From: Parachryseolinea silvisoli
GTDB lineage: Bacteria > Bacteroidota > Bacteroidia > Cytophagales > Cyclobacteriaceae
Length of the DNA: 64,000 bases
Assembly (NCBI RefSeq): GCF_021190955.1
Contig: NZ_JAIOAO010000005.1
Span: forward strand, 248,001 to 312,000
Direction: 5' to 3'
The first letter of the stretch is position 1. Each line of letters begins with the position of its first letter. This document shows positions 9,015-36,448 of the stretch, one piece after another. The notes under the pieces are model-generated. The model ran no database searches. It saw only the letters and a list, made by a program, of their open reading frames with translations, and was not told the DNA's origin. The position numbers were made by a program, and so were the translations under genes.

Positions 9015-11264
9015 ATGACAATGACAACAAACATTCACCCCGGCAAAAACGCCTCGCGCACGCGCACCACCTTCCCGGTGTTGGAAATGACCTGTGGCGC
9101 CTGTGCCAGCAGCGTCGAGTCGATGCTGGCCGCATCGCCCGGCGTTTATACAGCCTCTGTAAACTACGCCAACCAAACGGCGCTGATAGAATACGACACA
9201 ACCCAAACACAGCCACAAGCCCTGCAGGCCGCCGTGCGTTCCATTGGCTACGACCTCGTCATCGACACGGAAGACCCACAGGCCCAGGCCGCCGACGCGC
9301 AACAAAAGTACTATGCCGCGCTCAAGACCCGCACGCTGTGGGCATGTATCCTGTCCGTGCCCGTCGTGGTCCTCGGCATGTTCTTCATGGACTACGCCTA
9401 TACACCCTATATATCGCTTGTCCTCACCGCGCCCATCGTATTTTACCTTGGCCGAAGTTTCTTTACACACGCCTGGAAACAGGCGCGGCACGGCCAGGCA
9501 ACCATGGACACCCTGGTAGCATTATCGACGAGCATCGCCTTTCTATTCAGTACATTCAATACATTCTTTCCCGGCTACTGGCATGCCCGCGGCTTACACG
9601 CCCATGTATACTATGAAGCCGCTGCCGTCATCATCGCATTCCTCTCCATCGGCAAACTGCTCGAAGCACGCGCCAAAGCCAGCACCTCGTCAGCCATACG
9701 CAAGCTCATGGGTCTTCAACCCAAGACTGTTTTGGTTGTACAGGATACAGTCGAGCAGGAACTGCCGATCGCTGCCGTACGCATCGGGAACATCGTAGTC
9801 GTACGCCCCGGCGAACGTATTCCTGTCGACGGCGTGGTAGAATCGGGAACGTCGTATGTCGACGAAAGCATGATCAGCGGCGAGTCGATCGCCGTATCAA
9901 AAAAGGCCGGCGACAAAGTATTCGCCGGCACCGTCAACGAACGTGGCAGCTTCCGGCTGGAAGCCCGGCAGGTAGGTAGCGACACCGTCCTGGCCCGCAT
10001 CATTCGCATGGTACAAGAGGCACAAGGCAGCAAAGCCCCCGTGCAACAGCTGGCCGACAAAATCGCAGGCATCTTTGTCCCCGTGGTGATTACCCTGGCG
10101 ATACTCACCTTTGCCACGTGGATGCTGGCCGGTGGTGAGCACGCCTTTACCCATGGCCTGCTGGCAGCTGTCACCGTGTTGGTCATTGCCTGCCCATGCG
10201 CGCTGGGACTCGCCACCCCTACAGCCCTGATGGTCGGTGTCGGCAAAGGTGCCGAAAACAACATCCTCATCCGCGATGCCGAAAGCCTCGAACGCGCCCA
10301 CCAGGTAACAGCCGTCGTACTCGACAAGACCGGTACGCTCACCGACGGCAAGCCGCGTGTCACCGACCTGGTGTGGCAGCAAGACACCGGCAACAATCTG
10401 GCGGCCTCTGTGCTCTACAGCCTCGAAACGTCGTCGGAGCATCCACTTGCCGCCGCCGTTGTACATCACTTAAAAGATACCGGCACGCAAGGTGTACTCC
10501 TGCAACACTTCGAAGCACTCCCCGGCCGCGGTGTAGCCGCCATGTATCAAACTATACCGTACTACGTAGGCAACACACGACTCCTGACGGAACACCAGAT
10601 TCTGATACCACCGGCCTTACAAGTGCAAGCAGAACGTCTGCAAGAACTAGCCCGTACAGTGGTATACTTTGCCGACGCCCAACGCGTCCTGGCGCTGATC
10701 GCCATTGCCGACATCCTCAAACCTACCTCCCGGGCCGCAGTAGAAGCCCTGCAAGAAAAAGGAATCGCAGTGTACATGCTCACGGGCGACAACCCCCAGA
10801 CCGCACGCGCCATCGCCCGGCAGGCAGGCATTGCGCACTACGAAGCCGAAGTCATGCCCGACCAGAAAGCAGCCTATATCAAAAAACTGCAAGCGCAGGG
10901 ACACGTCGTCGCCATGGCCGGCGACGGCATCAACGACTCGCAGGCATTGGCACAAGCCGACGTCAGCATCGCCATGGGCAAAGGCTCCGACATCGCCATG
11001 GACGTGGCCAAGATGACCCTCATCACATCCGACCTGCAAGCTATTCCCAAAGCGCTGACCCTATCCACACAAACCGTGCGGGGCATTCGCCAGAACCTCT
11101 TCTGGGCATTTATATACAACGTCATCGGCATACCCATCGCCGCCGGTGTATTATACCCTGTCAATGGATTTCTGCTCGACCCGATGGTGGCCGGCGCCGC
11201 CATGGCGCTCAGCTCGCTCAGCGTAGTGGCCAACAGCCTGCGGTTAAAAGCCCGGAAGATCTGA
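9015..11264 (+). CDS. copA: Copper-translocating P-type ATPase (P1B)
   Basis: 749 residues. It exports Cu(I) or Ag(I) across the cytoplasmic membrane with ATP. One N-terminal HMA domain carries MTCGAC (25-30). Membrane helices follow; the transport helix has ACPCALG with C393-P-C395. The actuator loop has SGES, the P-domain DKTGT (phosphorylated D437), then SSEHPLA (nucleotide-binding HP motif), MLTGDN and GDGIND (636-641). C-terminal helices end in a conserved MAMALSSLSVVANSLRL-type tail. It lies between an HMA-AraC regulator and an HMA chaperone. GC-rich codons match the neighbours. Specificity for Cu/Ag over Zn/Cd is inferred from CPC and the C-terminal helix motif. Confidence 0.95.
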   Translation: MTMTTNIHPGKNASRTRTTFPVLEMTCGACASSVESMLAASPGVYTASVNYANQTALIEYDTTQTQPQALQAAVRSIGYDLVIDTEDPQAQAADAQQKYYAALKTRTLWACILSVPVVVLGMFFMDYAYTPYISLVLTAPIVFYLGRSFFTHAWKQARHGQATMDTLVALSTSIAFLFSTFNTFFPGYWHARGLHAHVYYEAAAVIIAFLSIGKLLEARAKASTSSAIRKLMGLQPKTVLVVQDTVEQELPIAAVRIGNIVVVRPGERIPVDGVVESGTSYVDESMISGESIAVSKKAGDKVFAGTVNERGSFRLEARQVGSDTVLARIIRMVQEAQGSKAPVQQLADKIAGIFVPVVITLAILTFATWMLAGGEHAFTHGLLAAVTVLVIACPCALGLATPTALMVGVGKGAENNILIRDAESLERAHQVTAVVLDKTGTLTDGKPRVTDLVWQQDTGNNLAASVLYSLETSSEHPLAAAVVHHLKDTGTQGVLLQHFEALPGRGVAAMYQTIPYYVGNTRLLTEHQILIPPALQVQAERLQELARTVVYFADAQRVLALIAIADILKPTSRAAVEALQEKGIAVYMLTGDNPQTARAIARQAGIAHYEAEVMPDQKAAYIKKLQAQGHVVAMAGDGINDSQALAQADVSIAMGKGSDIAMDVAKMTLITSDLQAIPKALTLSTQTVRGIRQNLFWAFIYNVIGIPIAAGVLYPVNGFLLDPMVAGAAMALSSLSVVANSLRLKARKI

Positions 11265-19589: not shown

Positions 19590-21695
19590 ATGTATCGTAT
19601 TTCGTTTCGTCGCCTGTTACCCCTGTCATTGGGGCTTGCAGCGATCTGTACCGGTGCCCGGGCACAGGGACATGTACCGGCAACAATGAATTTTAAGACA
19701 GAGGCCTTCCTCCTCAAGAACAAGATTGTAGCCGAGCACTACAGCCCGCCGGCGATAGACGATGCATTTTCCGCAGCCGCGTTCGACCTTTTTATGGACA
19801 ACCTCGATCCGGAACGTCTCATCTTTACTGACGGCGAGGTACAAGCCCTGAAAACTTATCGCGACAAGCTCGATGACGAAATAAACGGTAAAAGCTGGAG
19901 TTTTTTGCCGGCAGCCACCAAAGGTTACCAAAAGGCTCTTGCCCGGGCTACACAGGCAATAAACCAGGGTACACAACGTGCGTTCGATTTCAGCGCAAAG
20001 GAAACCTATAATGAAGACACCCTCTGGACGAAAGACGAAGCCTTTATTTTTGAGCGCTGGCGTCTGTTGCTTAAATACGAAACACTCGTCCGTTTAACAA
20101 ACACGAGGAGCAGGAATACCGTTGAGCCCGAAGCGATCTTCCTGAAGAACCAGGAACCGGCTACGCGCAACCTGGTAAAGACAATAAACCTTGCCCGGCT
20201 CAATCGTGTAATAAACAACGCCGCCGGCTTTGAGAATTATGTGGGAATAGCGCTGCTCCGGGCGGTCGCCAATACCATCGATGCGCATACGAACTATTTC
20301 TCGCCCAAGGAAATGGAAGATTTTATGAGCGAGCTGAGCACGGAAGGATACCTGTTCGGATTTCAGCTGAAGACCAATGACATGGGCGACCTCGTAATAG
20401 ACCAGCTTACGCCCGGTGGCCCCGCCTGGAAGTCGGGAGCGATCCACACCGGCGATGTGCTTGACCGGCTGCGATGGGAAGGCGGTAACTGGATAGAGCT
20501 TGCCGGCCTCGACCCACACGAGGCCGGACTTATACTCGACGAATCGAATCACCAGACATTGGAAATAGAGTTTCACGGCCCAGGTGGCCAGCAAACAAAA
20601 GTGCTCCTGAAAAAGGAGAAAATGTCCGACGATGATAATATCGTAAAAAGCTTCGTGCTGCAGCGCGACGAACGGAAAATAGGCTATATCTATCTGCCCG
20701 GATTTTATACAGACTGGAACGGTACCGAAGGGTCGAAGAGTGCCAACGATGTGGCTGCGGCAATACTTAAATTGAAAAAGGAAAACATAGAAGGTATAAT
20801 TCTCGATGTTCGCTTTAACGGCGGTGGATCTTTACAAGAGGCCGTAGCGATGGCAGGAATCTTTATAGATGCAGGGCCGATCGGGCTACTGAAAAACAAA
20901 GGAGGCGATATCGTAACCGTGAAAGACATGAATCGCGGCACGATCTATAACGGCCCGCTGGTACTGATGGTAAACGCGCTCAGCGCATCGGCATCGGAGT
21001 TCCTGGCGGCGGCGTTAAAGGACTACCATCGCGCTATTATTGTTGGAAGTCGCACGTATGGCAAAGCAACGTCGCAGCTTATTTACCCACTGGATCCTAA
21101 AAACGCAAGCGCCAAATTCACCGGTGTAACGAAAAGCCCGCTCGGCTATACGGCTATCACCGTAGAGAAAATCTATCGCATCAATGGCAAAACCATACAA
21201 CGCAAAGGCGTCGTGCCTGATATTCAGCTGCCAGATTTGTTAAATGCCTTGCCCATTCGCGAACAAGACGTGGAGCATACACTGCCATCCGACTCGGTAC
21301 AAAAAAAAACCTACTACGATCCGCTTCCATTCCTACCGCTGAAAATGGTGCGGGCTAAAAGCGACGAGCGCGTGGCAGCTTCCGGAGCATTCAAACAACA
21401 GCAATATTACGCAACCGCGCTGCGGCAGCAGGATGGCGGGGGCGAGTCGTTGTTATTTAAAGATATGCTGGCCGCCAGCCAACAGGAACAAACCCTCGGG
21501 ACCGGCGCCAATGTAACGAGAGGTACAACGGCCTATCGCGTAAACCTGCTACCCGGTGATGTAGTGGCCGACCCAGCCGACGATTACAAAAAAAACATCA
21601 ACACCGCCTGGATAACCCGCCTACTACAGGATATATACATTGAAGAAAGCTTTTATATATTAAACGATCAACTAAATCAATCTAAAAAACCATGA
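19590..21695 (+). CDS. prc: Carboxy-terminal (tail-specific) S41 protease
   Basis: 701 residues. Signal peptide about 1-25. The N-terminal helical domain of Prc/Tsp proteases is followed by a PDZ domain (about 240-330, with GPAWKSGAIHTGDVLD) and the S41 catalytic domain. IGYIYLPGFYTD, GIILDVRFNGGGSLQEA and the nucleophile NALSASASEFLAAAL are present, with the general-base Lys in GSRTYGKATSQ. In the periplasm such enzymes trim or degrade proteins by their C-termini. CTGTAAA (about 19555) and GTATATTC upstream may be promoter elements. The next gene overlaps by 4 bases. Confidence 0.93.
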   Translation: MYRISFRRLLPLSLGLAAICTGARAQGHVPATMNFKTEAFLLKNKIVAEHYSPPAIDDAFSAAAFDLFMDNLDPERLIFTDGEVQALKTYRDKLDDEINGKSWSFLPAATKGYQKALARATQAINQGTQRAFDFSAKETYNEDTLWTKDEAFIFERWRLLLKYETLVRLTNTRSRNTVEPEAIFLKNQEPATRNLVKTINLARLNRVINNAAGFENYVGIALLRAVANTIDAHTNYFSPKEMEDFMSELSTEGYLFGFQLKTNDMGDLVIDQLTPGGPAWKSGAIHTGDVLDRLRWEGGNWIELAGLDPHEAGLILDESNHQTLEIEFHGPGGQQTKVLLKKEKMSDDDNIVKSFVLQRDERKIGYIYLPGFYTDWNGTEGSKSANDVAAAILKLKKENIEGIILDVRFNGGGSLQEAVAMAGIFIDAGPIGLLKNKGGDIVTVKDMNRGTIYNGPLVLMVNALSASASEFLAAALKDYHRAIIVGSRTYGKATSQLIYPLDPKNASAKFTGVTKSPLGYTAITVEKIYRINGKTIQRKGVVPDIQLPDLLNALPIREQDVEHTLPSDSVQKKTYYDPLPFLPLKMVRAKSDERVAASGAFKQQQYYATALRQQDGGGESLLFKDMLAASQQEQTLGTGANVTRGTTAYRVNLLPGDVVADPADDYKKNINTAWITRLLQDIYIEESFYILNDQLNQSKKP

Positions 21696-22741
21696 CACAC
21701 ACTAAGTTGGCGCTTACTGTTGCACTGATCAGCCTGACCCTTTCAGGCTTTACAAAAGAACAACCCCATGCTGCGGGTACGGCCGTAGAACACATGGCCT
21801 TTCTGTCTGACCTGGAAGAAACACTCTCGGAAAAATACATGAGCTACATGAGCGAGGTGGCGCACGGCGGCCGCGCGCGCAAAATGGATAAACGCCGTCA
21901 GGACCTCATCGCCGCAGTGCGTACATCCATTACACAAGGCAATAAGCTCAAACCTTTTGAGGGCGACGCCACCCTTAAAACGGCTTATGTACAATACTGG
22001 AACGTATTGCTTTCGGTCTTCAACGAAGATTACCGCAAGATTGTAGACATGGAAGAGATAGCCGAGCGCTCGTACGACGAAATGGAAGCCTATCTGCTGA
22101 TGCAGGAAAAAGCAGGCGACCGCCTCGATGAGGCCTATAACCAGGTATCGAGTGCCTACCGTACGTTCGCGGAAAAACACAACGTACGCCTGTCTGAATC
22201 CCAAAGCTCAAAGCTCACGCGCAAGCTCCAGCAAACCGGCAAAGTGAACAGCTACGTGAATAAGATGTACCTTCTTCATTTCAAGAGCACCGTACAGGAA
22301 GGCAACATGATAACGGCCCTGAATAATAAAGATGTAAACGGCATGGAGCAAAGCCGCGAGGCGATGAAACGCTATGCGGATGAAGGTCTGTCACGTCTTG
22401 ACACCATAAAAGGCTTTAAAGGCGACGGGTCTCTCGTAACCGCATGCCGTAAAATACTCGAGTTCCAGGTGATGGAAGCTGGAAATATTACGGCACTGTC
22501 GGATTTTATGATCAAATCCGACGACCACGAAAAAGCGCGCAAGACCTTCGAAGCCAAGCCTGCCGCTAAACGTACCCAAGCTGATATAGACACCTACAAT
22601 AAAAGTGTAAATACCTACAACCAGGCAGTTCAAAACTACACCAAAGTAAACGACGATCTCAACAAGAAACGCACCAGCGTCCTCAACAACTGGGATAACT
22701 CCCGAAAACGCTTTATGGACAGTCACGTACCGCATAAATAG
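21692..22741 (+). CDS. Exported helical protein coupled to the Prc protease
   Basis: 349 residues. Signal peptide about 1-20 without a lipobox Cys. The mature part is almost entirely charged helix with coiled-coil character (DLEETLSEKYMSYMSEV; NTYNQAVQNYTKVNDDL). I recall related uncharacterised surface proteins in Leptospira and Bacteroidota, but assign no function. The ATGA overlap with prc makes translational coupling likely; it may be an adaptor, substrate or regulator of the protease. Confidence 0.75.
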   Translation: MTHTKLALTVALISLTLSGFTKEQPHAAGTAVEHMAFLSDLEETLSEKYMSYMSEVAHGGRARKMDKRRQDLIAAVRTSITQGNKLKPFEGDATLKTAYVQYWNVLLSVFNEDYRKIVDMEEIAERSYDEMEAYLLMQEKAGDRLDEAYNQVSSAYRTFAEKHNVRLSESQSSKLTRKLQQTGKVNSYVNKMYLLHFKSTVQEGNMITALNNKDVNGMEQSREAMKRYADEGLSRLDTIKGFKGDGSLVTACRKILEFQVMEAGNITALSDFMIKSDDHEKARKTFEAKPAAKRTQADIDTYNKSVNTYNQAVQNYTKVNDDLNKKRTSVLNNWDNSRKRFMDSHVPHK

Positions 22742-22806: not shown

Positions 22807-24612
22807 TTACCATCCCATGATCTGCGTCAGATTGGGATTCAGCAATACCTGCGGCTGTGGCACCGGCCGGTAATAAAACTTAGGCTCCTCAAAAGTACCC
22901 AGGTCACTTGCCGTAGCGATGTTACCATGCTCACCATCCTTCAGGTAGAACGTAGCGCCTTCTGTGCCAATAGCCCCCACTCGGTAATAGACCAGCGTCT
23001 TACCCAATGAATTCTTCTCTTTATTGGCTTCCCCCGGAATCTCAGCATCGGCCGGCAGCAAAATGATATCGTCGATATTATCCCCCGTCAGGTCATATTT
23101 ACCCAGGCCAGGGAAATAAACTCCCTCCGGTTCTATCTCCGCGCGCTCGCCCGCATGCCAGCGCATCAAATCATCAAAACGATACCCCTCCAACGCCAGC
23201 TCCACACGACGCTCGCGACGAATCTCCAGCAACACCGCCGCCTGCCCACCGGCTACCAGGGGATATTGCGCTTGCAGCACCGGGTCAACGGACGGGTTGA
23301 TCGCAAGTGCCGGCATACCCACGCGCGCGCGGAGCAGATTTACCGTACCATCCAAATCGCCCTGTGTCAGCGTGCCCAATTCGGCTTTCGCCTCCGCGAA
23401 GATCAGGTAGATTTCCGCCAGGCGAATCAGCGGTATATCCAGGTTGTTCTGCACATCGGTATCGGTATTGTTCACAAAACCTTTGATCTGGTGGTACCCG
23501 GTAAAATTCCGCGACAATTCTTGTATATAAATGCCGGCACCCTGCGCATACGTAGAGTTATTGATCAGCTCCCAGCCTGGGTAAGCAAAAGTTTGCTTCA
23601 GGCGCGGGTCGCGGTCTGCAAACTCTTCCACAAACTGATTAGTGGCGTAACCTGCCTGGCTGGTATACGGCGTGCCGTCGGCCATCAGGTAGGTTTGCAG
23701 CAAGTCTTTCGACGGGCTCACCTCGTAGTTACCGAACATATATCCCCACCAACCGCTGTTTAACAAGCCCGCCTCATAGAAACGGCCGAGAATGACCTCG
23801 GTGTTACCTTCCAGACTTCCACTGGTAAACAGCGACGCGTAATCCGATTCAGGCTTGCCGGTATTGTACAGCGCAAAGCCGCCATCGGTGATGACCTCAT
23901 CCGCCACTTCACTCGCCAGCGTCAGGTATTTATCCGCCGTTGATTGCAGGTTGAGCTCTGTATGATACTTGCGAAATGTGCCTTCAAACAAGGCAGCGTC
24001 CGCCATAAAAGCACGAACAACCCATTTCGTTACAGCACCCGGACGGTCCTCGCTCGCATCTGCGTCAACATACTGACGGGCAAATTCAAGGTCTTCAAAG
24101 ATCTTATCAACGACCGTTGTGCGCGTGTCACGTCCCTTGTACAGGTCCGGATCGTCTTGCGTCAACGTCTTTTCATACCAGGGCACGTCAGAATAGCGTG
24201 CTACTTTGCCCATATAAAATTTAGCCCGAAAGAACCGTCCCAGGCCCTCGTAATGACTGCGCTGCGCCTCGGTCAGCGTGGCTGTACCAAAGTGGTCAAG
24301 GTAATAATTGATCTTGCGCAACTGATCCCAGGTCCATCCTTCCGTAACGTTGGCTGCAGTCGGGCTCCCCGCCATCATGTTCTTGAGCTCGGTTACACCG
24401 GTTGTCGCGGTATTATCCGTCGACACATCCTCCACGTAAATGCCGACACCTCCAAAATTATACACACTATACAGGTAGGTATCGAGATCGTCAGCCGTGT
24501 GAAAGAAATCCTTTTCACTAATCTCTGTCTGTGGAGAACGCTCCAGGAAGTCATCGTTGCAAGCCTGCGTAGCCAGCAGGAACACAACAAACAGTATACT
24601 ATATTTCTTCAT
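22807..24612 (-). CDS. SusD/RagB-family outer-membrane lipoprotein
   Basis: 601 residues. Lipoprotein signal with Cys18 (LLATQACNDDFLERSP, a hallmark SusD opening). The rest is the helical TPR-type SusD fold with the C-terminal region LLEIRRERRVELALEGYRF, the family signature. It forms a lid on the SusC channel and captures the nutrient, often a glycan. Downstream partner of susC on the same strand (32-base gap). Ligand cannot be read from sequence; no glycoside hydrolase is in the same operon. Confidence 0.95.
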   Translation of the reverse strand: MKKYSILFVVFLLATQACNDDFLERSPQTEISEKDFFHTADDLDTYLYSVYNFGGVGIYVEDVSTDNTATTGVTELKNMMAGSPTAANVTEGWTWDQLRKINYYLDHFGTATLTEAQRSHYEGLGRFFRAKFYMGKVARYSDVPWYEKTLTQDDPDLYKGRDTRTTVVDKIFEDLEFARQYVDADASEDRPGAVTKWVVRAFMADAALFEGTFRKYHTELNLQSTADKYLTLASEVADEVITDGGFALYNTGKPESDYASLFTSGSLEGNTEVILGRFYEAGLLNSGWWGYMFGNYEVSPSKDLLQTYLMADGTPYTSQAGYATNQFVEEFADRDPRLKQTFAYPGWELINNSTYAQGAGIYIQELSRNFTGYHQIKGFVNNTDTDVQNNLDIPLIRLAEIYLIFAEAKAELGTLTQGDLDGTVNLLRARVGMPALAINPSVDPVLQAQYPLVAGGQAAVLLEIRRERRVELALEGYRFDDLMRWHAGERAEIEPEGVYFPGLGKYDLTGDNIDDIILLPADAEIPGEANKEKNSLGKTLVYYRVGAIGTEGATFYLKDGEHGNIATASDLGTFEEPKFYYRPVPQPQVLLNPNLTQIMGW

Positions 24613-24644: not shown

Positions 24645-27600
24645 TTAAAATTGAAGCTCGATGCCAAACGAGTACTTCCGTTGAAAAGGATACGCATATC
24701 CCCAGCCGTTCTGATCACCGGTGGGCTGGTAGCTCGGATCGGTCTTGCCGATGTTGTTGGTGATCGCCTCAGGGTCAAAGTACTTCTTCAGCGCCGACCA
24801 CTCCGTCAGGTTCTCGCCGCTAACATATACCCGCAGCTTGTTGACGTGGATGCGGTCCAGCAGCGCATGCGGCAACGAGTAACCAAGGGTGACGTTCTTC
24901 AGACGCAGGTAAGCAGCGTTCAGCAAATAATTCGTTTGAGGGATAGCAAGGCCTTGCGACTGGTCTGTCCGCTCACCCAGGTTCTTGTCGGCAAGCCACG
25001 CTTGCAACACCGGATACCTGGAATCGGTGTTGGCTTCCGCCAGACCCGCGTTGATATACGATTGCGAGTGTTGTGCACGCAGTGCTTCGCTATCCGCTTC
25101 GCCGCGGTAGAAGTCCAGCAAGTGTGCATAGCCACCCGCGTACGGCTGCTGATAAAAACCCCAATACAGGTAATTGGTGGGATAGTAGTCCATCTTGCCC
25201 ACGCCCTGGAAGAAGGCGCGTAGGTCAAAGCCGTTCCACTCGGCACCCAGTGTAAAGCCAAAGCGGAAGCGCGGCGTGATGTTGCCGATCACCGACAGGT
25301 CTTTCGGATCATTTACCGTAGCGCCTTTCTCAATTGTACCACTGCCATCCAGGTCCCTATACTTAGGCCAGCCTTCTACAATCTCCAACGCGCCCCAGGG
25401 AATGATCGACGACTCGTCAAGATTAGCTATTTCCTCCTGATTCTTAAATAGACCGTCGCTCTGCAGACCCCAGATTTCACCCAGCGTCATACCTTCATAA
25501 TATTGCGTCAGGTTGCGATTGGGGTTATCGAAGCGGGTGATCTTGGTTTTGTTGTCCGAGATGACAAAGCTGAAATACGTATGCAGCGATTTTCCACCGA
25601 CACTGAACTCATCATCATACCCCAGCGACAGCTCCCAGCCAGTCGTGCGCAGGTCCGCGGAATTCTCTTTCGGCGGGGCCACGCCCAGTACCGCAGGCAG
25701 TTCCTTGCCGCGCATCAGCATACCTTCGGTATCACGACGGTATACATCAAACGACGCTGTAATACGCTGTTGCAGGAACCCCAGGTCAATACCCAGGTCA
25801 CTGGATTTAACGTCCTCCCAGGTATAGTTCTTCGACACCAGGTAAGGTGACGATACCATCGACGGTAGACCACCGCCAATCAAATAGTTACCCTCGTTGA
25901 GCGACGAAAGCGGGAAGTAGCCGTACTCGTCAATGGCCGACTGGTTACCGAGGGAACCAAACGAGCCTCGAATCTTCATCGTGTTTACCACGGTAGATAC
26001 CGGCTCCCAGAACGCTTCCTCGTCCACCTTCCACGCCGCCGACACCGACGGATAGAAACCGAAGCGCTTGTCTTTCGCGAACTTCGACGATCCGTCATAC
26101 CGACCATCGAGCTCAACGATATACCGGTCATTAAAGATATAGTTCAAACGATAGAAGCCACCACGCAGCGCCCATTCACGAATCGATTCATCCACCGTGG
26201 CCAGGCCTGTAGCCAACCCAATAGAAGGGATCGAAGGCGAAATCACACCAACTTTCTCTGACTCCACCGAATCCAGCCGGCTATATTCCTGATTAAAGCC
26301 CACAATGGCGTTTACAAAATGCTTGCCCTTCGTTTTTTCGAACGTGGCATAGGTATTCAAAACATAATATGACAAACTGTTACCCAGACGGGAAGCGGTA
26401 TTATTACCTTCTTCGCGAACATCTTCCGGCCCATAGCCGATCAGCAGCTTATTTTCGTTACTGCGATTGGTCAGGTTATCACGACGCACCGTAAAGTCCG
26501 CATTCACACGCAGCATCCGTTCGAAGAACGACAGCTCGCCGCTGAACGTACTTTGGAACATATTGATCCGGGTAATACTCTGACCACCATCAACCATTTT
26601 TGCGGCGGCACGGCCTACATCGGTGTTAGCCCACGTACCGTCAGGGTTGCGGTCCCAGCTGGTCGGGAACAGGTTGAAAAGATCTTCCATCGACAGCTGC
26701 GAAGGCGTTACCCGCTCCGTCATAGACAATGACGTATTATTACCAAACGACAGCCATTTATAAGGAGTAAAGTTTACTTTAGCCCGCACACTGTATCGGT
26801 CATATTTATCGTCCGCTACCTTCAGCGCGCCGTTTTGTGAATCGTACGCACCCGACAGATAATACGCCGTAGTGCCAGACTTGCCAGACATGGTTACATT
26901 GTGGCGCACCGACAGCGTGGGGTTGTCGAGGTAGTACTTCGTCCAGTCGCGATTGCCCATATAGGCCCAAAGCGAATTGTCGTCCGGATCGATACGAACC
27001 GGCCCGGAAGATGCCGGGTTATCAGAGCGCTCGCGAGCCCACGCATACTGGGTGGGTGTATAATCTACATAGTCCCACGGAGTGTTGTTTGTAGAGGTCT
27101 CCAACGTCCGCATGAAAATATAGGGATCCGCTACTTTGTTCGGCAGTACCGTAGCATTTCCCCACGCAAAGTTATTGTTGTACTCTACATTAAAACCTTC
27201 ACGCACGCCGCTCTTCGTTGTCACAAGGATCACACCAAACGCAGCCCGCGAGCCGTAAATCGCAGCAGACGAGGCGTCTTTCAGAACCGACATACTCTTG
27301 ATATCCGACGGTGCAATCAGGTTCAGGTCCGCCACGCTCATGGGTACATTGTCCACCAGTACCAGCGGCTGGCCACCATTGATCGAAGTAATACCACGGA
27401 TGTTAATGTTCGGCGAAGCCCCCGGCGCACCACTTCCAAAGTCAACGTTCAGACCGGGAACAGCACCCTGCAACCCTTGCCCCACACTTTGAATAGGACG
27501 TGATTCCAGCACTTTGCTATCGACGACACCAACAGCGCCCGACAGGTTGGCTTTCTTCTGCTCGCCAAAACCTACGACGACTACTTCCTCTAAAGAAGTC

Positions 27601-27938
27601 GAGTTGACCTGCAACGGAATGTCGATTGTCGAACGATTGCCGACTGTTACCTCCGAGGTGACATATCCAATAAACGTGACGACCAGCACGTCACCGGCGG
27701 CAACGTCCAGCGAAAAGCTGCCGTTCACATCGGTCATCGTACCGGAAGCGGTGGATTTGATCAGGATGCTGGCGCCGATCACAGGCGATCCATCAGCAGC
27801 ATCCGTCACCGTACCACGCAGCGTCATGCGCTGCGCAGGCGAGGCGTTCTGAGCCATGACCCATCCTGGAAGACACGCCAGTAAACAGGCGAGCACCACC
27901 ACCTGGGCGAGGCCGGAAAGATTGTAGAGTTGCTTCAT
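24645..27938 (-). CDS. SusC/RagA-family TonB-linked outer-membrane transporter
   Basis: 1097 residues. Signal peptide about 1-29, then a CarboxypepD_reg-like domain (MTLRGTVTDAADGSPVIGAS ... VTFIGYVT), the motif LEEVVVVGFGEQKK (TonB box region), a plug domain (IRGITSINGGQPLVLVDNVP; YGSRAAFGVILVTTK) and a large beta-barrel ending in Phe. It imports the SusD-captured ligand with TonB energy. Promoter: TACCTTTG at 27975-27968 (minus), with the TetR operator at 27990-28007 directly upstream over the -33 region. Confidence 0.96.
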   Translation of the reverse strand: MKQLYNLSGLAQVVVLACLLACLPGWVMAQNASPAQRMTLRGTVTDAADGSPVIGASILIKSTASGTMTDVNGSFSLDVAAGDVLVVTFIGYVTSEVTVGNRSTIDIPLQVNSTSLEEVVVVGFGEQKKANLSGAVGVVDSKVLESRPIQSVGQGLQGAVPGLNVDFGSGAPGASPNINIRGITSINGGQPLVLVDNVPMSVADLNLIAPSDIKSMSVLKDASSAAIYGSRAAFGVILVTTKSGVREGFNVEYNNNFAWGNATVLPNKVADPYIFMRTLETSTNNTPWDYVDYTPTQYAWARERSDNPASSGPVRIDPDDNSLWAYMGNRDWTKYYLDNPTLSVRHNVTMSGKSGTTAYYLSGAYDSQNGALKVADDKYDRYSVRAKVNFTPYKWLSFGNNTSLSMTERVTPSQLSMEDLFNLFPTSWDRNPDGTWANTDVGRAAAKMVDGGQSITRINMFQSTFSGELSFFERMLRVNADFTVRRDNLTNRSNENKLLIGYGPEDVREEGNNTASRLGNSLSYYVLNTYATFEKTKGKHFVNAIVGFNQEYSRLDSVESEKVGVISPSIPSIGLATGLATVDESIREWALRGGFYRLNYIFNDRYIVELDGRYDGSSKFAKDKRFGFYPSVSAAWKVDEEAFWEPVSTVVNTMKIRGSFGSLGNQSAIDEYGYFPLSSLNEGNYLIGGGLPSMVSSPYLVSKNYTWEDVKSSDLGIDLGFLQQRITASFDVYRRDTEGMLMRGKELPAVLGVAPPKENSADLRTTGWELSLGYDDEFSVGGKSLHTYFSFVISDNKTKITRFDNPNRNLTQYYEGMTLGEIWGLQSDGLFKNQEEIANLDESSIIPWGALEIVEGWPKYRDLDGSGTIEKGATVNDPKDLSVIGNITPRFRFGFTLGAEWNGFDLRAFFQGVGKMDYYPTNYLYWGFYQQPYAGGYAHLLDFYRGEADSEALRAQHSQSYINAGLAEANTDSRYPVLQAWLADKNLGERTDQSQGLAIPQTNYLLNAAYLRLKNVTLGYSLPHALLDRIHVNKLRVYVSGENLTEWSALKKYFDPEAITNNIGKTDPSYQPTGDQNGWGYAYPFQRKYSFGIELQF

Positions 27939-27967: not shown

Positions 27968-27975
27968 CAAAGGTA
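27968..27975 (-). promoter_or_regulatory. susC promoter -7 element
   Basis: TACCTTTG on the minus strand, a perfect TAnnTTTG match, 30 bases before the susC start codon. Confidence 0.7.
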
Positions 27976-27989
27976 TAGGTAGAATAAAT

Positions 27990-28007
27990 ATTGAATGACC
28001 ATTCAAT
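27990..28007. promoter_or_regulatory. Palindromic TetR-type operator, copy 1
   Basis: ATTGAATGACCATTCAAT, with 8-bp arms around AC. It lies 15 bases upstream of the susC -7 element and between susC and the divergent TetR gene. A 17-of-18 match (on the opposite strand) is at 29012-29029. Confidence 0.8.
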
Positions 28008-28051
28008 CAAAAATTAACAGACTCTTCATATCGGGTCTGATTGAATTAATG

Positions 28052-28059
28052 TAGTTTTG
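28052..28059 (+). promoter_or_regulatory. TetR gene promoter -7 element
   Basis: TAGTTTTG matches TAnnTTTG 18 bases before the TetR start codon. ATTGAATTAAT at about 28040-28050 resembles half an operator over its upstream region. Confidence 0.6.
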
Positions 28060-28076
28060 ACAAAACATTAACACGC

Positions 28077-28667
28077 ATGGGAAGAACAAGCCTCAAGGAG
28101 GTACGACAACAGGAAATTATACTCGCCTTCTATAAAGTAGCCAAAAAAATAGGTCTCGAAAATGCCTCGATAGCCAAAGTGGCCGATCACCTCGAAATCA
28201 ACCCCAGCCTGATCGTACACTATTTTAAAACACGCGAAGCGCTCATCGAAGGGCTGATCCACTTCATACTCGAACGGTATAGCGACATCTATAAAACCAA
28301 CGGCGGACACTATACTACGGCAAAAGAGCTCACCACCCTGATGGACAATCTTTTCTCGCGCACCTGGGACAAGCTCTTCGACGACAGCGTATTCTATAGC
28401 TGTTACGCACTCACCTACCGGGATAAGAAGATCCGCGCATCGTTTAAATCGCTGCACGACTCCTTGCGCGAATCATTACGGGATGCACTCCACAAAGCCC
28501 GCGCAAACGGTGTCATTGAGGTAAAGAATGAAAAAGAAACGGCAGAGGTCATCTTCGCACTGATCGAAGGAGCCTATTATTACTTAGGGATGGTAGACTC
28601 ACCAACAGAAAACACCCGCAAACTGAACATCATGAAGCGGCAGGCACTCACCCTGTTGGGCCTTTAG
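28077..28667 (+). CDS. TetR/AcrR-family transcriptional regulator
   Basis: 196 residues. The N-terminal DNA-binding domain has IILAFYKVAKKIGLENASIA and HLEINPSLIVHYFKTREALI, the standard TetR HTH with a BetI-like helix. The remaining helices form the ligand/dimer domain. It is divergent from susC. The perfect palindrome between them, and its copy at 29012-29029 before the next two genes, makes it the likely repressor of susCD, the phosphodiesterase and the small membrane protein. Ligand unknown. Confidence 0.92.
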   Translation: MGRTSLKEVRQQEIILAFYKVAKKIGLENASIAKVADHLEINPSLIVHYFKTREALIEGLIHFILERYSDIYKTNGGHYTTAKELTTLMDNLFSRTWDKLFDDSVFYSCYALTYRDKKIRASFKSLHDSLRESLRDALHKARANGVIEVKNEKETAEVIFALIEGAYYYLGMVDSPTENTRKLNIMKRQALTLLGL

Positions 28668-28680
28668 CGTGGGTATGATC

Positions 28681-28702
28681 GCTCTCACACTCACGCTGTT
28701 TT
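28681..28702 (+). repeat. Dispersed CTCACACTC-type repeat, copy
   Basis: GCTCTCACACTCACGCTG followed by TTTT, the cleanest copy, 14 bases after the TetR stop. Its end runs into the last codons of the convergent membrane-protein gene (stop 28691). Confidence 0.65.
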
Positions 28703-28975
28703 TTGTCGCTGACTCTTTTTCCGGACGATATAAATACGCAAAAGTGACGCCGCCGCAATCACAATCCAGAGTGCATTGACCACCAGGTTAGGCATATCCA
28801 TGAGCGTATACGAAACAACCACCAGGCAAAGGCCACCGAGGGCATTGAGCAAATGATACGGTACCCCTTCCGCACGCATCCATCCCAGGCTCAACAGCGC
28901 ATACGCCGTAACGTATGCCAGCACACCCGTCCATCCGATAATCTCGCCTGTAGAAAAACTTAACGTTTCATTCAT
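28691..28975 (-). CDS. Small membrane protein, CBU_0592-like
   Basis: 94 residues with three helices: IIGWTGVLAYVTAYALLSLG, LLNALGGLCLVVVSYTLM and VVNALWIVIAAASLLRIYIV, and a short basic tail. The pattern W-x-G-V-x-A-Y-x-x-A-Y and L-N-x-L-G-G fits the CBU_0592 family, of unknown function and distantly like small sugar or vitamin transporters. Divergent from the phosphodiesterase; the shared operator lies 37 bases upstream. The stop falls inside the dispersed repeat. Confidence 0.75.
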   Translation of the reverse strand: MNETLSFSTGEIIGWTGVLAYVTAYALLSLGWMRAEGVPYHLLNALGGLCLVVVSYTLMDMPNLVVNALWIVIAAASLLRIYIVRKKSQRQKTA

Positions 28976-29011
28976 GTGCCCGATTTTATTAGCTGCACGA
29001 AGATATTCAAT

Positions 29012-29029
29012 TTTGAATGGTCATTCAAT
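29012..29029. promoter_or_regulatory. Palindromic TetR-type operator, copy 2
   Basis: TTTGAATGGTCATTCAAT, identical at 17 of 18 positions to the reverse complement of copy 1. It lies 13 bases upstream of TACCTTTA (29042-29049), a near -7 element for the phosphodiesterase gene, the same geometry as at susC. Confidence 0.8.
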
Positions 29030-29107
29030 CTATTCATGTAGTACCTTTAACAGCATGGAGAGCGAATGCGCCCATACCGATTTACTACAAATCTTTCAAA
29101 GCATTTT

Positions 29108-30367
29108 ATGACCAAGATTAAGTTTCTGTTATCAGTCGCTTGCTGCTGTATGCTGCTGAGCGCGGCTGCCCAAACGCGCAAGGCAGTATTTATGATCCTT
29201 GACGGTATTCCCGCCGACGTCATCGAAAAGACCGACATGCCCGTATTAAAAGAGATCGCAGCGCGCGGCGGGTATACCCGCAGCTACCTGGGCGGCGAAA
29301 AAGACGGCTTCAGCCAATCTCCGACCATATCAGCCGTGGGTTACAACCACGTCCTGACCGGCGTGTGGTCGCACAAACACAACGTGTGGGACAACGACAT
29401 CCGCGAGCCCAACTACGCCTACTGGAATATCTTCCGCATCGCCGAGCAGGCCAACCCGTCGCTGCAAACCGCCGTCTTCTCGTCGTGGATCGACAACCGC
29501 ACCAAGCTGGTCGGCGAAGGCCTGCCCGCCGCCGGCAACGTCAAGCTGGACTATAGCTTCGACGGTCTCGAGCTGGATAAAACACGCTTCCCCGCCGGTG
29601 AAAAAAGAATGTTCGACATCGATGAAAGCGTCTCCACCGAAGCCGGCCGCTACATCCGCGAAAAAGGCCCCGACCTGTCATGGGTATATTTGGAATATCC
29701 AGACGACATGGGCCATCTGTACGGCGACAGCCCGCAGTTCCTGGACGCGGTAAAAAAAGCAGACGCCCAGGTAGGCCGCGTATGGGAAGCCATCAAAGCC
29801 CGTGAGCAACAGTACGGCGAGCAGTGGATGATCGTCATTACCACCGACCACGGTCGCGATGCACAAACCGGCAAAAACCACGGCAGTCAAACCGACCGCG
29901 AGCGCACCACGTGGATCTACACCAACCTGGCCGACCGCAATGCCCGGTTCAAAACCAACACCGCCACCGTGGACATCATGCCGTCCATCCTGCGTTTCCT
30001 CACCATCCCCCTACCCGCTACTACCGAGCAAGAGCTCGACGGCGTGCCCTTCACCGGCAAGGTATCGGTGCACGACCTGAAGGCCGTACGCAATGGCAAG
30101 AACATCGAGCTGACCTGGGGTATATTTGACGGCGCCGGAAAAGCAGAGATCCTGGTCAGCACCACCAACAACGTACGCGACGGCAAGGGCGACGACACCT
30201 ACACCCGTGTGGCAGAAGTGCCCGTATCCGCTGGAAAATATACGTTCACACAGCCGGAAACAACTTTCTGCAAAATCGTCGTAAAAGCCCCCAACAATAC
30301 CATCAGCACATGGATCGTTGACAACAAATACGTCAAACACGTCCGCCCCTTCGGCCGCCAGTACTAA
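29108..30367 (+). CDS. Secreted alkaline phosphatase-superfamily phosphodiesterase (NPP-like)
   Basis: 419 residues from the ATG at 29108; the frame extends to 29066 without a signal-like start. Signal peptide about 1-21. Metal-binding FMILDGIPAD, probable nucleophile Thr in QSPTISAVGYNHVLTG, then YPDDMGHLYGDS and ITTDHGRD complete the two-metal site of nucleotide pyrophosphatases/phosphodiesterases. The C-terminal 90 residues form a small beta domain. It probably cleaves phosphodiesters in the periplasm or outside. The operator at 29012-29029 links it to the susCD locus. Confidence 0.88.
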   Translation: MTKIKFLLSVACCCMLLSAAAQTRKAVFMILDGIPADVIEKTDMPVLKEIAARGGYTRSYLGGEKDGFSQSPTISAVGYNHVLTGVWSHKHNVWDNDIREPNYAYWNIFRIAEQANPSLQTAVFSSWIDNRTKLVGEGLPAAGNVKLDYSFDGLELDKTRFPAGEKRMFDIDESVSTEAGRYIREKGPDLSWVYLEYPDDMGHLYGDSPQFLDAVKKADAQVGRVWEAIKAREQQYGEQWMIVITTDHGRDAQTGKNHGSQTDRERTTWIYTNLADRNARFKTNTATVDIMPSILRFLTIPLPATTEQELDGVPFTGKVSVHDLKAVRNGKNIELTWGIFDGAGKAEILVSTTNNVRDGKGDDTYTRVAEVPVSAGKYTFTQPETTFCKIVVKAPNNTISTWIVDNKYVKHVRPFGRQY

Positions 30368-30373
30368 CAACAC

Positions 30374-30411
30374 AAAGGCCGCTGCCTGGCAAAACCCAAG
30401 CAGCGGCCTTT
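30374..30411. terminator. Rho-independent terminator
   Basis: AAAGGCCGCTGC with GCAGCGGCCTTT, a perfect 12-bp stem, 7 bases after the phosphodiesterase stop. Confidence 0.88.
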
Positions 30412-30439
30412 AAATTTACATTTCACACGCACATTATTC

Positions 30440-33723: not shown

Positions 33724-36207
33724 TCAGGCCATCTGCGGGTCGGTCAGGCTGTCCTGCCCCGTCTCTACGTGCCCGGCATATTGTTTCCGAAAGGCATTAT
33801 ACCCTTCCGCCGTGATTGTCACGTCATACCATCCTGCACTTTTCTCTAACTTCAGCTGACATATAGCCGTTTTACCCGCTGCAATGGTCTTTACCTGTGC
33901 GGGTGCATGGTAGGCATTGTCCACAACATGTACCACCAGCGTGCTCTCGCCCGTATTTCTCAGGTTCAACATGACATCGCCCTTCGCGCGCCCCTTGCTG
34001 TCAAACGCATATACATACACGCATGTCGTCACCAGCATCGGGTCCTGCGCATCGCCCGCAAACGCCCGGTAAAAGCCGTTCGGCCCATAGACCTGCAATG
34101 TATATTTTCCATCAACGAAATCTGACACCTTCCAGGAATCGTGCAAACGGTCACCGGCCGTGACGGCATACGCCCGCGGCGCAACAGTGTGTACCAGGCC
34201 CCGTGCATATACCTGAAACGGCGCGCCCGCCGCCGCATGGCTAAACATGCGATTGTTTGCCTCCAATGTCATCTGAAAGATTTTGCCCCCTTCGCGGAGC
34301 TCACCATCGGCGTATAGCTCATACGGTATGGCGCGGGCCGTGCGCGTACCGGGCTCCTGCGGGAACAGCGAGGAAGCCTTACGCGGCGCGCGGCGCAGGG
34401 CCGCCACCTCGTCGGTCGTCAGGGCACGATACCCCGAAGGCACCTGCTTGAACCGTGCCCGGTGTATAGACGCAATCACTTCATCGTGTTCCAGGAAAGA
34501 CGGCAGCGGTATCTTTTCCCCCTGGTAAGGTTTAAACACCGACGTCAGGTCGCCACATACCGCGCGGCGCCACGCGCTGATGTTGGGTTCGGTCACAGGC
34601 TTACCAGTCTTGTGCGAAAGGAACTTCTCCAGGAACTGCAGCACCGACGTATGGTCGAACACCTGCGAGCAGACCGCGCCGCCACGGCTCCACGGTGAGG
34701 CTATCACCAACGGCACGCGGTACCCCAGGCCGATCGGGCTTTCACGTGCTTCCGGACCCGGCTTGCGCAAACGGTCCTGCGCCAAGGTTACATACTCCAC
34801 CGCCGTATCGATCCCCGCCGACACCTTACCGGAATCAGGCTTGCCCGGGTGCGGCGGCACAAACGGCGGCACGTGATCGAAATAACCATCGTTCTCGTCG
34901 TAGCAGAGTATAAAGATCGTTTTCTTCCATACCTCCGGCTTGTTTGTCAAAATGTCCATCACCTCCGACACATACCAGGCACCATACCACGGTGCACCCG
35001 GATGGTCCGAGAAGTTCTCCGGCGCCACCACCCACGACACCGCGGGCAATGTATCCGCCGCCACATCCGCCCGGAACTGCGCCAGGATGTCACCTTTCGG
35101 CACCTGCACCTGTCGCGTATCGGTACCTTCCGTATAGGGCAGTGAAGCCAGTGTATGATAATCGGGGTCGATGCGATTGGTCGTAAACGCCTTCTCGTGC
35201 AGGTTACGGGCCCGCTCCGTCAACGCGGCGTAGGCTTCCGCCGTAAAACGTCGCTGATCTTCCAGGGCCTGCTGCAGCGCTTGTTCCTTTGCGATCCGCT
35301 CGGGACTCGTGGCGTCCAGGCGTGTGATCTCCTGTCGTAAAACGTCGATGCGCTTCGGCAAATAGCGACGATACGCTTCCGAAAACTTTACGTGATATTG
35401 TTCAAACCACTCCAGCGGATTGTCGGTAAAATTGGCCAGCCAGGCATCCTCCTCTCCTTCAAACCCTACCCCTACACTCAATTCATTCTGATATACTTTC
35501 CAGGAGATGCCATGCTCTTCCAGCCGCTCGGGAAACGTCGTCCAATGCGCCAGGCGTGCATCGTCGTAATCGAGATCTTCATTGCGCACCATGGCCGGCG
35601 CGCTGGTAGTGGGCTTTTCGCGGATCGTGCCGGTCCATAGATAAAGACGGTTGGGCGTCGTGCCGGTAAGCGACGACGAGAAATTCTGATCGCACACCGT
35701 AAAGGCATCCGCCAGGGCGTAGTAAAATGGAATATCCTCCCGGGTATAATACCCCAGCGTCAGCGGCATGTCTTTGTATCCGTCACGTCCCGAGGGTTTG
35801 GCTTGCAGCCACTGATCATGGTATCCTTCGTTGCGCGCATCCACCTGGTTAGACCACGAATGCGGCAGAGAGCCCATCCAGGTCGCCTGCGTATCCTTGA
35901 TGTCGAGACGGAACGGAAAATATGTTTGCCCCGCGGCATTGGTTTGCAACCACACCGGATTCTGGTTGGGTAGTGTCACAGCACGCGGATCGCGAAAGCC
36001 GCGCACACCGCGCAGCGAACCATAACAGTGATCAAACGAACGGTTCTCCTGCATCAGGATCACCACATGTTCAGCATCACGCCACGTCGTACCGACCGGT
36101 GGATCGATCGCCAGCGCCCGCTGAATAGCCGGTGGCAGTGTAGTCAACATTCCCGCGGCACCCGACAACAGGGTCGCCTTCTTGATAAACTCACGACGTG
36201 TTTCCAT
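33724..36207 (-). CDS. Phosphocholine-specific phospholipase C
   Basis: 827 residues from the ATG at 36207 (frame open to 36294). Twin-arginine-like signal METRREFIKKATLLSGAAGM. The catalytic phosphoesterase domain begins VVILMQENRSFDHCYGSLRG, the signature of bacterial non-haemolytic PLC/acid phosphatase-like enzymes. CYDENDGYFDHVPPF and VPLVIASPWSRGG are further family motifs. Two C-terminal beta domains of about 90 residues each follow, as in PlcN/PlcH. It removes phosphorylated headgroups from phospholipids outside the cytoplasm. Ends 3 bases from the convergent receiver gene. Confidence 0.92.
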   Translation of the reverse strand: METRREFIKKATLLSGAAGMLTTLPPAIQRALAIDPPVGTTWRDAEHVVILMQENRSFDHCYGSLRGVRGFRDPRAVTLPNQNPVWLQTNAAGQTYFPFRLDIKDTQATWMGSLPHSWSNQVDARNEGYHDQWLQAKPSGRDGYKDMPLTLGYYTREDIPFYYALADAFTVCDQNFSSSLTGTTPNRLYLWTGTIREKPTTSAPAMVRNEDLDYDDARLAHWTTFPERLEEHGISWKVYQNELSVGVGFEGEEDAWLANFTDNPLEWFEQYHVKFSEAYRRYLPKRIDVLRQEITRLDATSPERIAKEQALQQALEDQRRFTAEAYAALTERARNLHEKAFTTNRIDPDYHTLASLPYTEGTDTRQVQVPKGDILAQFRADVAADTLPAVSWVVAPENFSDHPGAPWYGAWYVSEVMDILTNKPEVWKKTIFILCYDENDGYFDHVPPFVPPHPGKPDSGKVSAGIDTAVEYVTLAQDRLRKPGPEARESPIGLGYRVPLVIASPWSRGGAVCSQVFDHTSVLQFLEKFLSHKTGKPVTEPNISAWRRAVCGDLTSVFKPYQGEKIPLPSFLEHDEVIASIHRARFKQVPSGYRALTTDEVAALRRAPRKASSLFPQEPGTRTARAIPYELYADGELREGGKIFQMTLEANNRMFSHAAAGAPFQVYARGLVHTVAPRAYAVTAGDRLHDSWKVSDFVDGKYTLQVYGPNGFYRAFAGDAQDPMLVTTCVYVYAFDSKGRAKGDVMLNLRNTGESTLVVHVVDNAYHAPAQVKTIAAGKTAICQLKLEKSAGWYDVTITAEGYNAFRKQYAGHVETGQDSLTDPQMA

Positions 36208-36448
36208 GATCAACAAACTATACGGTCTAAAGATAGCCCTTATTCGCCACAACTTTTGTGCCCGCCGATTGGAATTAACGGTTTGGTAACGCACACACGC
36301 GTACCGGGAACAGACTCCGCGGTCTACGTCAGAAACACCGGGGTCTTCCGGTTATATAGCCGTTAGTCGATTTGACATACAGTTCCCGTCACCCACCCTG
36401 CATCTTCACCATACTATAAAACAAATTCATAAACAAATCACGCTATCT

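Follow-up and report, generated by a model that had tools for sequence, protein, structure and literature searches.

Two palindromes in a 64,000-nucleotide stretch of the genome of Parachryseolinea silvisoli (the window) are best read as the conserved operator of a TetR_C_37 regulator, which is predicted to bind them, to block the promoters that they overlap and, likely, to be released by an organic-phosphodiester ligand; the probability of this reading is put at about 0.78. The operator is conserved among relatives, forms a set of four sites in the genome, accompanies pairs of SusCD importer and phosphoesterase genes and, at a remote locus, tracks the TetR gene within the genus.

Operator palindromes and their neighbouring genes

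Operator 1 (ATTGAATGACCATTCAAT, 27990-28007) lies between the divergent genes susC (start 27938, minus strand) and tetR (start 28077, plus strand), 69 bases from the tetR start. Operator 2 (TTTGAATGGTCATTCAAT, 29012-29029) is placed between the divergent genes of a CBU_0592-like protein (start 28975, minus strand; 36 bases away) and a phosphodiesterase. Neither palindrome is assigned a strand, and site 2 is identical to the reverse complement of site 1 in 17 of 18 positions. An earlier note on this DNA had claimed the palindrome and its 17/18 copy at these positions; both were confirmed as the sole matches to ATTGAATGNNCATTCAAT in the window at up to three mismatches, with 0 and 1 mismatches, respectively. 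In 100 shuffles of the window, the same threshold gave a mean of 0.35 matches, and two or more in 4 of the 100. An Rfam scan of the window returned no match.

In the genome of 7,945,725 bases, the 16-mer TTGAATGNNCATTCAA has four exact copies, no copy with a single mismatch and 15 with two, while 0.018 exact copies per genome are expected by chance from the base composition of the window. At up to two mismatches, the reversed pattern used as a control was found 12 times per strand versus 19 for the real pattern, so the two-mismatch matches of the genome are mostly chance. A whole-genome search had been proposed in the earlier note, with many copies unrelated to promoters as the outcome that would speak against a small TetR regulon. 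The four exact copies all stand upstream of susC and/or a phosphoesterase gene, and the regulon is supported in a bigger form than first claimed, with four sites at two loci, the second of them unlinked.

The regulator (28077-28667, plus strand) is the sole TetR_C_37 member found in the genome, and both of its domains exceed their cut-offs (PF18665, 139.7 bits against 27; TetR_N, 24.8 bits against 24). It falls outside the BetI family by the models TIGR03384 (44.6 bits, cut-off 201.3) and NF001978 (49.1 bits, cut-off 118). The importer comprises a SusC/RagA outer-membrane transporter (24645-27938, minus strand; TIGR04056, 808 bits) and a SusD/RagB lipoprotein (22807-24612, minus strand; PF07980, 164.5 bits). 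The enzyme is a predicted secreted NPP/type I phosphodiesterase of the alkaline-phosphatase superfamily (29108-30367, plus strand; PF01663, 61.6 bits), with the domain over the cut-off, the catalytic pattern intact, an invariant active-site pattern and a structure model of pLDDT 91.5 with fold matches. Its longest ORF begins at 29066; judging by the signal peptide MTKIKFLLS, the start at 29108 is more likely. A terminator-like hairpin of 17 pairs, without assigned strand, directly follows its 3' end (30373-30412). The CBU_0592-family protein (28691-28975, minus strand; NF047864, 51.2 bits, cut-off 25) is a small membrane protein of three helices, for which a structure model was obtained; SemiSWEET-type half transporters were compared with it by fold, with unrelated helical bundles as the yardstick.

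Two further genes were observed in the window. A LIC11966-family surface protein (NF047958, 77 bits; 21692-22741, plus strand) is encoded between a tail-specific protease gene and the end of susD, and locus L036 has a similar ORF at the matching position. A phosphocholine-specific phospholipase C (PC-PLC; TIGR03396, 834 bits; 33724-36294, minus strand) is encoded about 3.4 kb past the phosphodiesterase, without an upstream operator; in some relatives such an enzyme sits inside the TetR locus.

Promoter elements

The predicted susC promoter has the -7-like element TACCTTTG (27968-27975, minus strand) at 14 bases from operator 1, and the predicted phosphodiesterase promoter has TACCTTTA (29042-29049, plus strand) at 12 bases from operator 2. 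These elements had been claimed at 13-15 bases from the palindromes; they are present, at true distances of 14 and 12. In the clade of the window (L044, L045, L046), TACATTTG stands toward susC at offset 14, and L044 also has TACCTTTG at the phosphodiesterase-side spacing of the window. A perfect TAnnTTTG toward susC lies at offset 14 in these three loci and the window, whereas the other 14 perfect elements among the 74 loci described below occupy offsets 1 (five), 8, 12, 16, 26 (three), 27, 28 and 39. A common spacing of operator and -7 element is clear in the clade of the window and only there: a fixed promoter spacing was rejected as a general rule, and the scatter of offsets keeps promoter-overlap repression from being generalised beyond the clade. 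The same clade has the phosphodiesterase gene set apart with an operator of its own, and the counterpart of operator 2 shows 1 mismatch in L044 and, in L045 and L046, is weaker (4 strict mismatches). Most other loci with a phosphodiesterase carry its gene beyond susD, on the same strand.

Conservation of the operator across Bacteroidota

The layout of tetR, operator, susCD and phosphoesterase recurs in relatives. A scan of named-species genomes with a TetR alignment gave 158 relatives, the best 80 of which were fetched. In the interval separating tetR from the divergent gene (susC or phosphodiesterase), the best operator match has 0, 1, 2, 3 or 4 mismatches in 13, 20, 26, 11 and 4 of 74 named loci, respectively. 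A match with at most three mismatches was thus found in 70/74 loci versus 3/621 upstream regions of other ORFs and 13/1480 shuffles. The count omits six of the 80 (L049, L055, L056, L060, L116, L122), where tetR lacks a core gene on its upstream side and the best matches, in the short stretch scanned, have 4-6 mismatches. Forty same-family loci were added from as many of the 68 family genomes with the TetR, 32 of them new and 8 duplicating named loci, and were scanned over 510 bases each; the shuffle control belongs to the scan of named loci only. SusC, SusD and a phosphoesterase are present in 40/40, the PF01663-type enzyme in 38/40 and the operator with at most three mismatches in 37/40. Both sets combined, the operator is found at this threshold in 101 of 106 distinct loci. 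All locus counts, like the Fisher test below, ignore relatedness.

The TetR itself is patchily distributed, being present in 68/295 family genomes (E <= 1e-20) and in 5/395 genomes of a phylum sample, including G000 (E <= 1e-40); five genomes do not suffice for tests of adjacency. Exact matches to the degenerate operator are present in 19/68 family genomes with the TetR versus 7/227 without it (Fisher p 1.6e-8, kinship ignored), and in all 19 of the former the site is located 22-239 bases from tetR. The seven TetR-less genomes were read at one site each (G011 and G012 have a second); two of these sites adjoin the gene of a different TetR, and five have no core gene nearby. The two show that this type of palindrome is not unique to the TetR_C_37 regulator. 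At L152 and L155 (position 1501), exact operator-type palindromes were seen beside different TetRs, and the TetR_C_37 regulator was not found in those genomes. The half-site seems to be common to several TetR subfamilies. TetR-type operators with TGAATG/CATTCA halves, for example that of Bacillus subtilis FadR, are palindromes of similar half-sites; they differ from the window palindromes in spacing, regulator subfamily and target genes.

Several loci depart from the common arrangement. In Sinomicrobium (L108, L113, L114) the phosphodiesterase gene lies between tetR and susCD, and the intergenic region of L113 holds two operator matches with 2 mismatches each. L116 (7869-9606) and L122 (7879-9606) have two TetR relatives in tandem with PC-PLC and calcineurin-like esterase genes, and the best operator match before their second tetR is degenerate, with 4-5 mismatches. 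At L106, tetR, susCD and an operator with 3 mismatches are found on a contig that bears the name Thalassovita (Pseudomonadota); our guess is a mis-binned Bacteroidota contig rather than a transfer.

The second locus and the genus comparison

Contig C5 holds the other two copies of TTGAATGNNCATTCAA, separated by 5.1 kb, at a locus (L035) that encodes two SusCD pairs and an alkaline phosphatase/GDPD-like protein. Copy A precedes one susCD pair by about 290 bases, and copy B lies between the second susC and the divergent gene of a 610-residue alkaline phosphatase-domain protein, which scores over the cut-off for PF00245 (201.5 bits) and below it for GDPD_2 (PF13653, 22 bits against 27). A relative of the phosphatase gene is present in 7/7 genus genomes, in G006 only as a 44% match to its first part, while a search for the TetR at E <= 1e-3 found it in G000 and G002 and in none of the remaining five. 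The operator stands before the phosphatase gene in both genus species with the TetR (0 mismatches in G000, 2 strict mismatches in G002) versus none of the five without it, where the best matches have 5-6 mismatches. G001 and G004 keep the divergent susCD/phosphatase layout and lack the operator; G001 (L209) has a degenerate site with two mismatches, located within the phosphatase gene rather than ahead of it. As G000 and G002 are close kin (phosphatases 90% identical), their shared remote operator represents one evolutionary event, the direction of which fits a TetR acting in trans.

A scan for remote sites, allowing one mismatch to the degenerate pattern, covered 30 of the 68 family genomes with the TetR and found a site somewhere in 24/30. 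Fourteen remote places were read, leaving out G201:C170 and G120:C128; besides the G002 phosphatase site, they fall mostly within unrelated ORFs and were taken as chance. Among the remote places examined, no remote operator at a fitting gene was found outside the genus.

Phosphoesterases of the TetR loci

Enzymes were counted up to position 11000 in the 73 of the 80 named loci with a full left flank, families being assigned by BLAST clusters and their representatives by Pfam. At least one phosphoesterase is encoded in 67/73 loci, and none in the counted part of the remaining six; one of the loci scored as lacking it, L055, has a YncE/PF04185 gene just beyond the counted part, seen in its duplicate L237. 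The most frequent families are the PF01663-type phosphodiesterase (44 loci), calcineurin-like esterases (25) and endonuclease/exonuclease/phosphatase-family proteins (14), followed by PC-PLC (6, four of them checked by Pfam), YncE/PF04185 proteins (5) and class B acid phosphatases (4). As a control, 20 of the 72 other SusD loci in the genome of the window were taken at steps from score ranks 1 to 60, two of them overlapping. Relatives of the locus enzymes, the only proteins that this control detects, were found in 0/20, since two raw matches turned out to be proteins that combine PA14 with other domains and lack a phosphoesterase domain. The CBU_0592-like gene, which the earlier note had made a part of the pathway, is a frequent neighbour (55/73 named loci) and not a constant one.

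One TetR locus without a phosphoesterase, L100 (897-3351), has a TIGR03364 FAD-dependent oxidoreductase (373 bits) and a probable membrane protein adjoining susD; its substrate is perhaps a phosphonate or a methylated amine.

Proposed mechanism and alternative explanations

In the proposed mechanism, the TetR would bind the palindromes and repress the overlapping promoters, and its own gene would be autoregulated. A ligand derived from organic phosphodiesters likely frees it from the operator. SusCD would import a phosphodiester compound, and the phosphodiesterase, together with the alkaline phosphatase/GDPD-like enzyme of the second locus, would cleave it.

A repeat that arose by chance or has no regulatory role is a very improbable explanation of the two palindromes: two matches do arise in 4/100 window shuffles at the loose three-mismatch threshold, but the 101/106 distinct loci and the mere four exact copies in the genome already contradict this idea. 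The nutrient might also be nucleic acid or nucleotides, with the TetR sensing a nucleoside or a base. NPP, endonuclease/exonuclease/phosphatase-family, calcineurin-like and class B acid phosphatase enzymes can act on nucleotides, and all of them occur in the loci (the last three in 14, 25 and 4 of 73). This explanation is nevertheless unlikely, as lipid head groups are indicated by the sub-cut-off GDPD-like stretch at the second locus, by PC-PLC in 6/73 loci and by betaine-aldehyde dehydrogenase at three loci. The earlier note had supposed a phosphorylated or nucleotide-like nutrient; an organic phosphodiester fits better, and nucleotide-like is the less apt description. Another explanation concerns the control rather than the nutrient. 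Pho-type control may dominate, so that this would be an ordinary phosphate utilisation system under PhoB or an ECF sigma factor, induced by phosphate starvation, with the TetR as a minor modulator. The second locus indeed resembles PUSII of Flavobacterium johnsoniae (PusCD2 and PhoA1, pf00245+pf13653), for which PMC8115612 reports induction by phosphate depletion, and the phosphatase gene persists (in one case partly) in five genus members that lack the TetR and the operator, two of which also have divergent susCD. Dominant Pho control is still doubtful, because operator, tetR and susCD/phosphoesterase genes stand together in most of the 74 named and 40 family loci and the main text of PMC8115612 does not mention a TetR.

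A third possibility, to be entertained with reserve, is that the TetR senses choline or betaine and that choline phosphodiesters are the nutrient. The BetI models give the best E-value among NCBIfam families for 8/8 aligned TetRs, PC-PLC is encoded in 6/73 named loci, and genes of choline oxidation adjoin tetR at three loci. In L101 (Chitinophagaceae), tetR is followed by betA, betB, a permease, a glycine-betaine-monooxygenase-like gene and a sarcosine-oxidase-like gene; in L052 (Tangfeifania), by a sodium symporter, betA and betB; and in L255 (G271), by betB, a betA-related GMC oxidoreductase under the betA cut-off and a symporter that shares 67% identity with the one in L052. The betB proteins of all three exceed the NF009725 cut-off and fall just under that of TIGR01804, and the betA proteins of L101 and L052 exceed that of TIGR01810. 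Against a choline sensor, the TetR of the window is far under the BetI cut-offs, no betA (choline dehydrogenase) was detected in its genome, and betB adjoins tetR in only 3/112 distinct loci (2/80 named, 1/32 new). Two surveys weigh on the same side. The betA survey covered 65 family genomes, namely the 68 with the TetR minus the partial matches G091, G147 and G176, and 4 phylum-sample genomes; betA exceeds its cut-off in 16 of these 69 and lies within 20 kb of tetR on one contig in 0/16, a count limited by contig ends. In the same 65 family genomes, PC-PLC exceeds its cut-off in 34 but is a close neighbour of tetR (10 kb or less) in only two (G000, G098), and was rejected as a general partner; its adjacency cannot be judged in G002, where the tetR contig ends inside the phosphodiesterase gene. 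The PC-PLC loci fall at four places of the TetR tree (L116 with L122, L086, L107 with L112, and L080), which has 78 rows, the window and 77 named relatives, three short TetR ORFs, L052 among them, having been left out.

A broader version would have a BetI-like TetR subfamily sense choline or a choline phosphodiester across Bacteroidota and switch on SusCD importers combined with interchangeable phosphoesterases (NPP-type, PC-PLC, YncE-PF04185, PhoA-GDPD), as a phospholipid head-group regulon outside Pho control; this proposal is rather speculative. Under the preferred reading of a TetR-controlled phosphodiester uptake system, lipid head-group or glycerophosphodiester compounds are tentatively the most likely class of nutrient, which perhaps bears choline. 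As a separate observation, the Rieske protein that L049 (3021-4253) encodes downstream of tetR has 36% identity with the glycine-betaine-monooxygenase-like (GbcA-like) protein of L101.

Relation to known systems and significance

Lidbury et al. (PMC8115612) describe the PUSI and PUSII of F. johnsoniae, in which a SusCD-like importer is accompanied by PhoA1 (pf00245+pf13653) or by periplasmic phosphodiesterases; the systems are induced by phosphate depletion, and PUSI includes an ECF sigma factor. By analogy, the present system may work like such a phosphate utilisation system (PusCD) with a TetR switch of its own. The SusCD pair and the co-located phosphoesterases typical of a PUS are found here (the PF01663 enzyme, and the alkaline phosphatase at the second locus, which looks like PUSII), whereas the dedicated TetR with its shared operator and the NPP-type enzyme as main partner set the system apart. 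BetI (NF001978, TIGR03384) is the closest curated family of the regulator and is matched over most of its length, but the scores are about 49 and 45 bits against cut-offs of 118 and 201, the gene linkage is to an importer and phosphoesterases, and the genome has no detectable betA. In polysaccharide utilisation loci, a SusCD pair and surface or periplasmic enzymes are under SusR, HTCS or ECF control. The pair, the enzymes and a local regulator are shared with the present system, in which, by contrast, phosphoesterases replace the glycoside hydrolases and the regulator is a TetR.

No report of a TetR-SusCD-phosphodiesterase regulon was found in searches of open literature, most subscription papers lying outside them. 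PMC10197871 deals with another TetR in an antibiotic setting, and the PafA paper PMC8812569 does not mention a TetR.

SusCD importers are best known from glycan uptake, and their organophosphate versions have been reported as phosphate-starvation genes. Since a short operator and its regulator are available, the nutrient could be found through a simple inducer screen. If the conserved pairing of this TetR and its operator on SusCD-phosphoesterase genes holds true, many Bacteroidota would treat phosphodiesters as specific, inducer-controlled nutrients.
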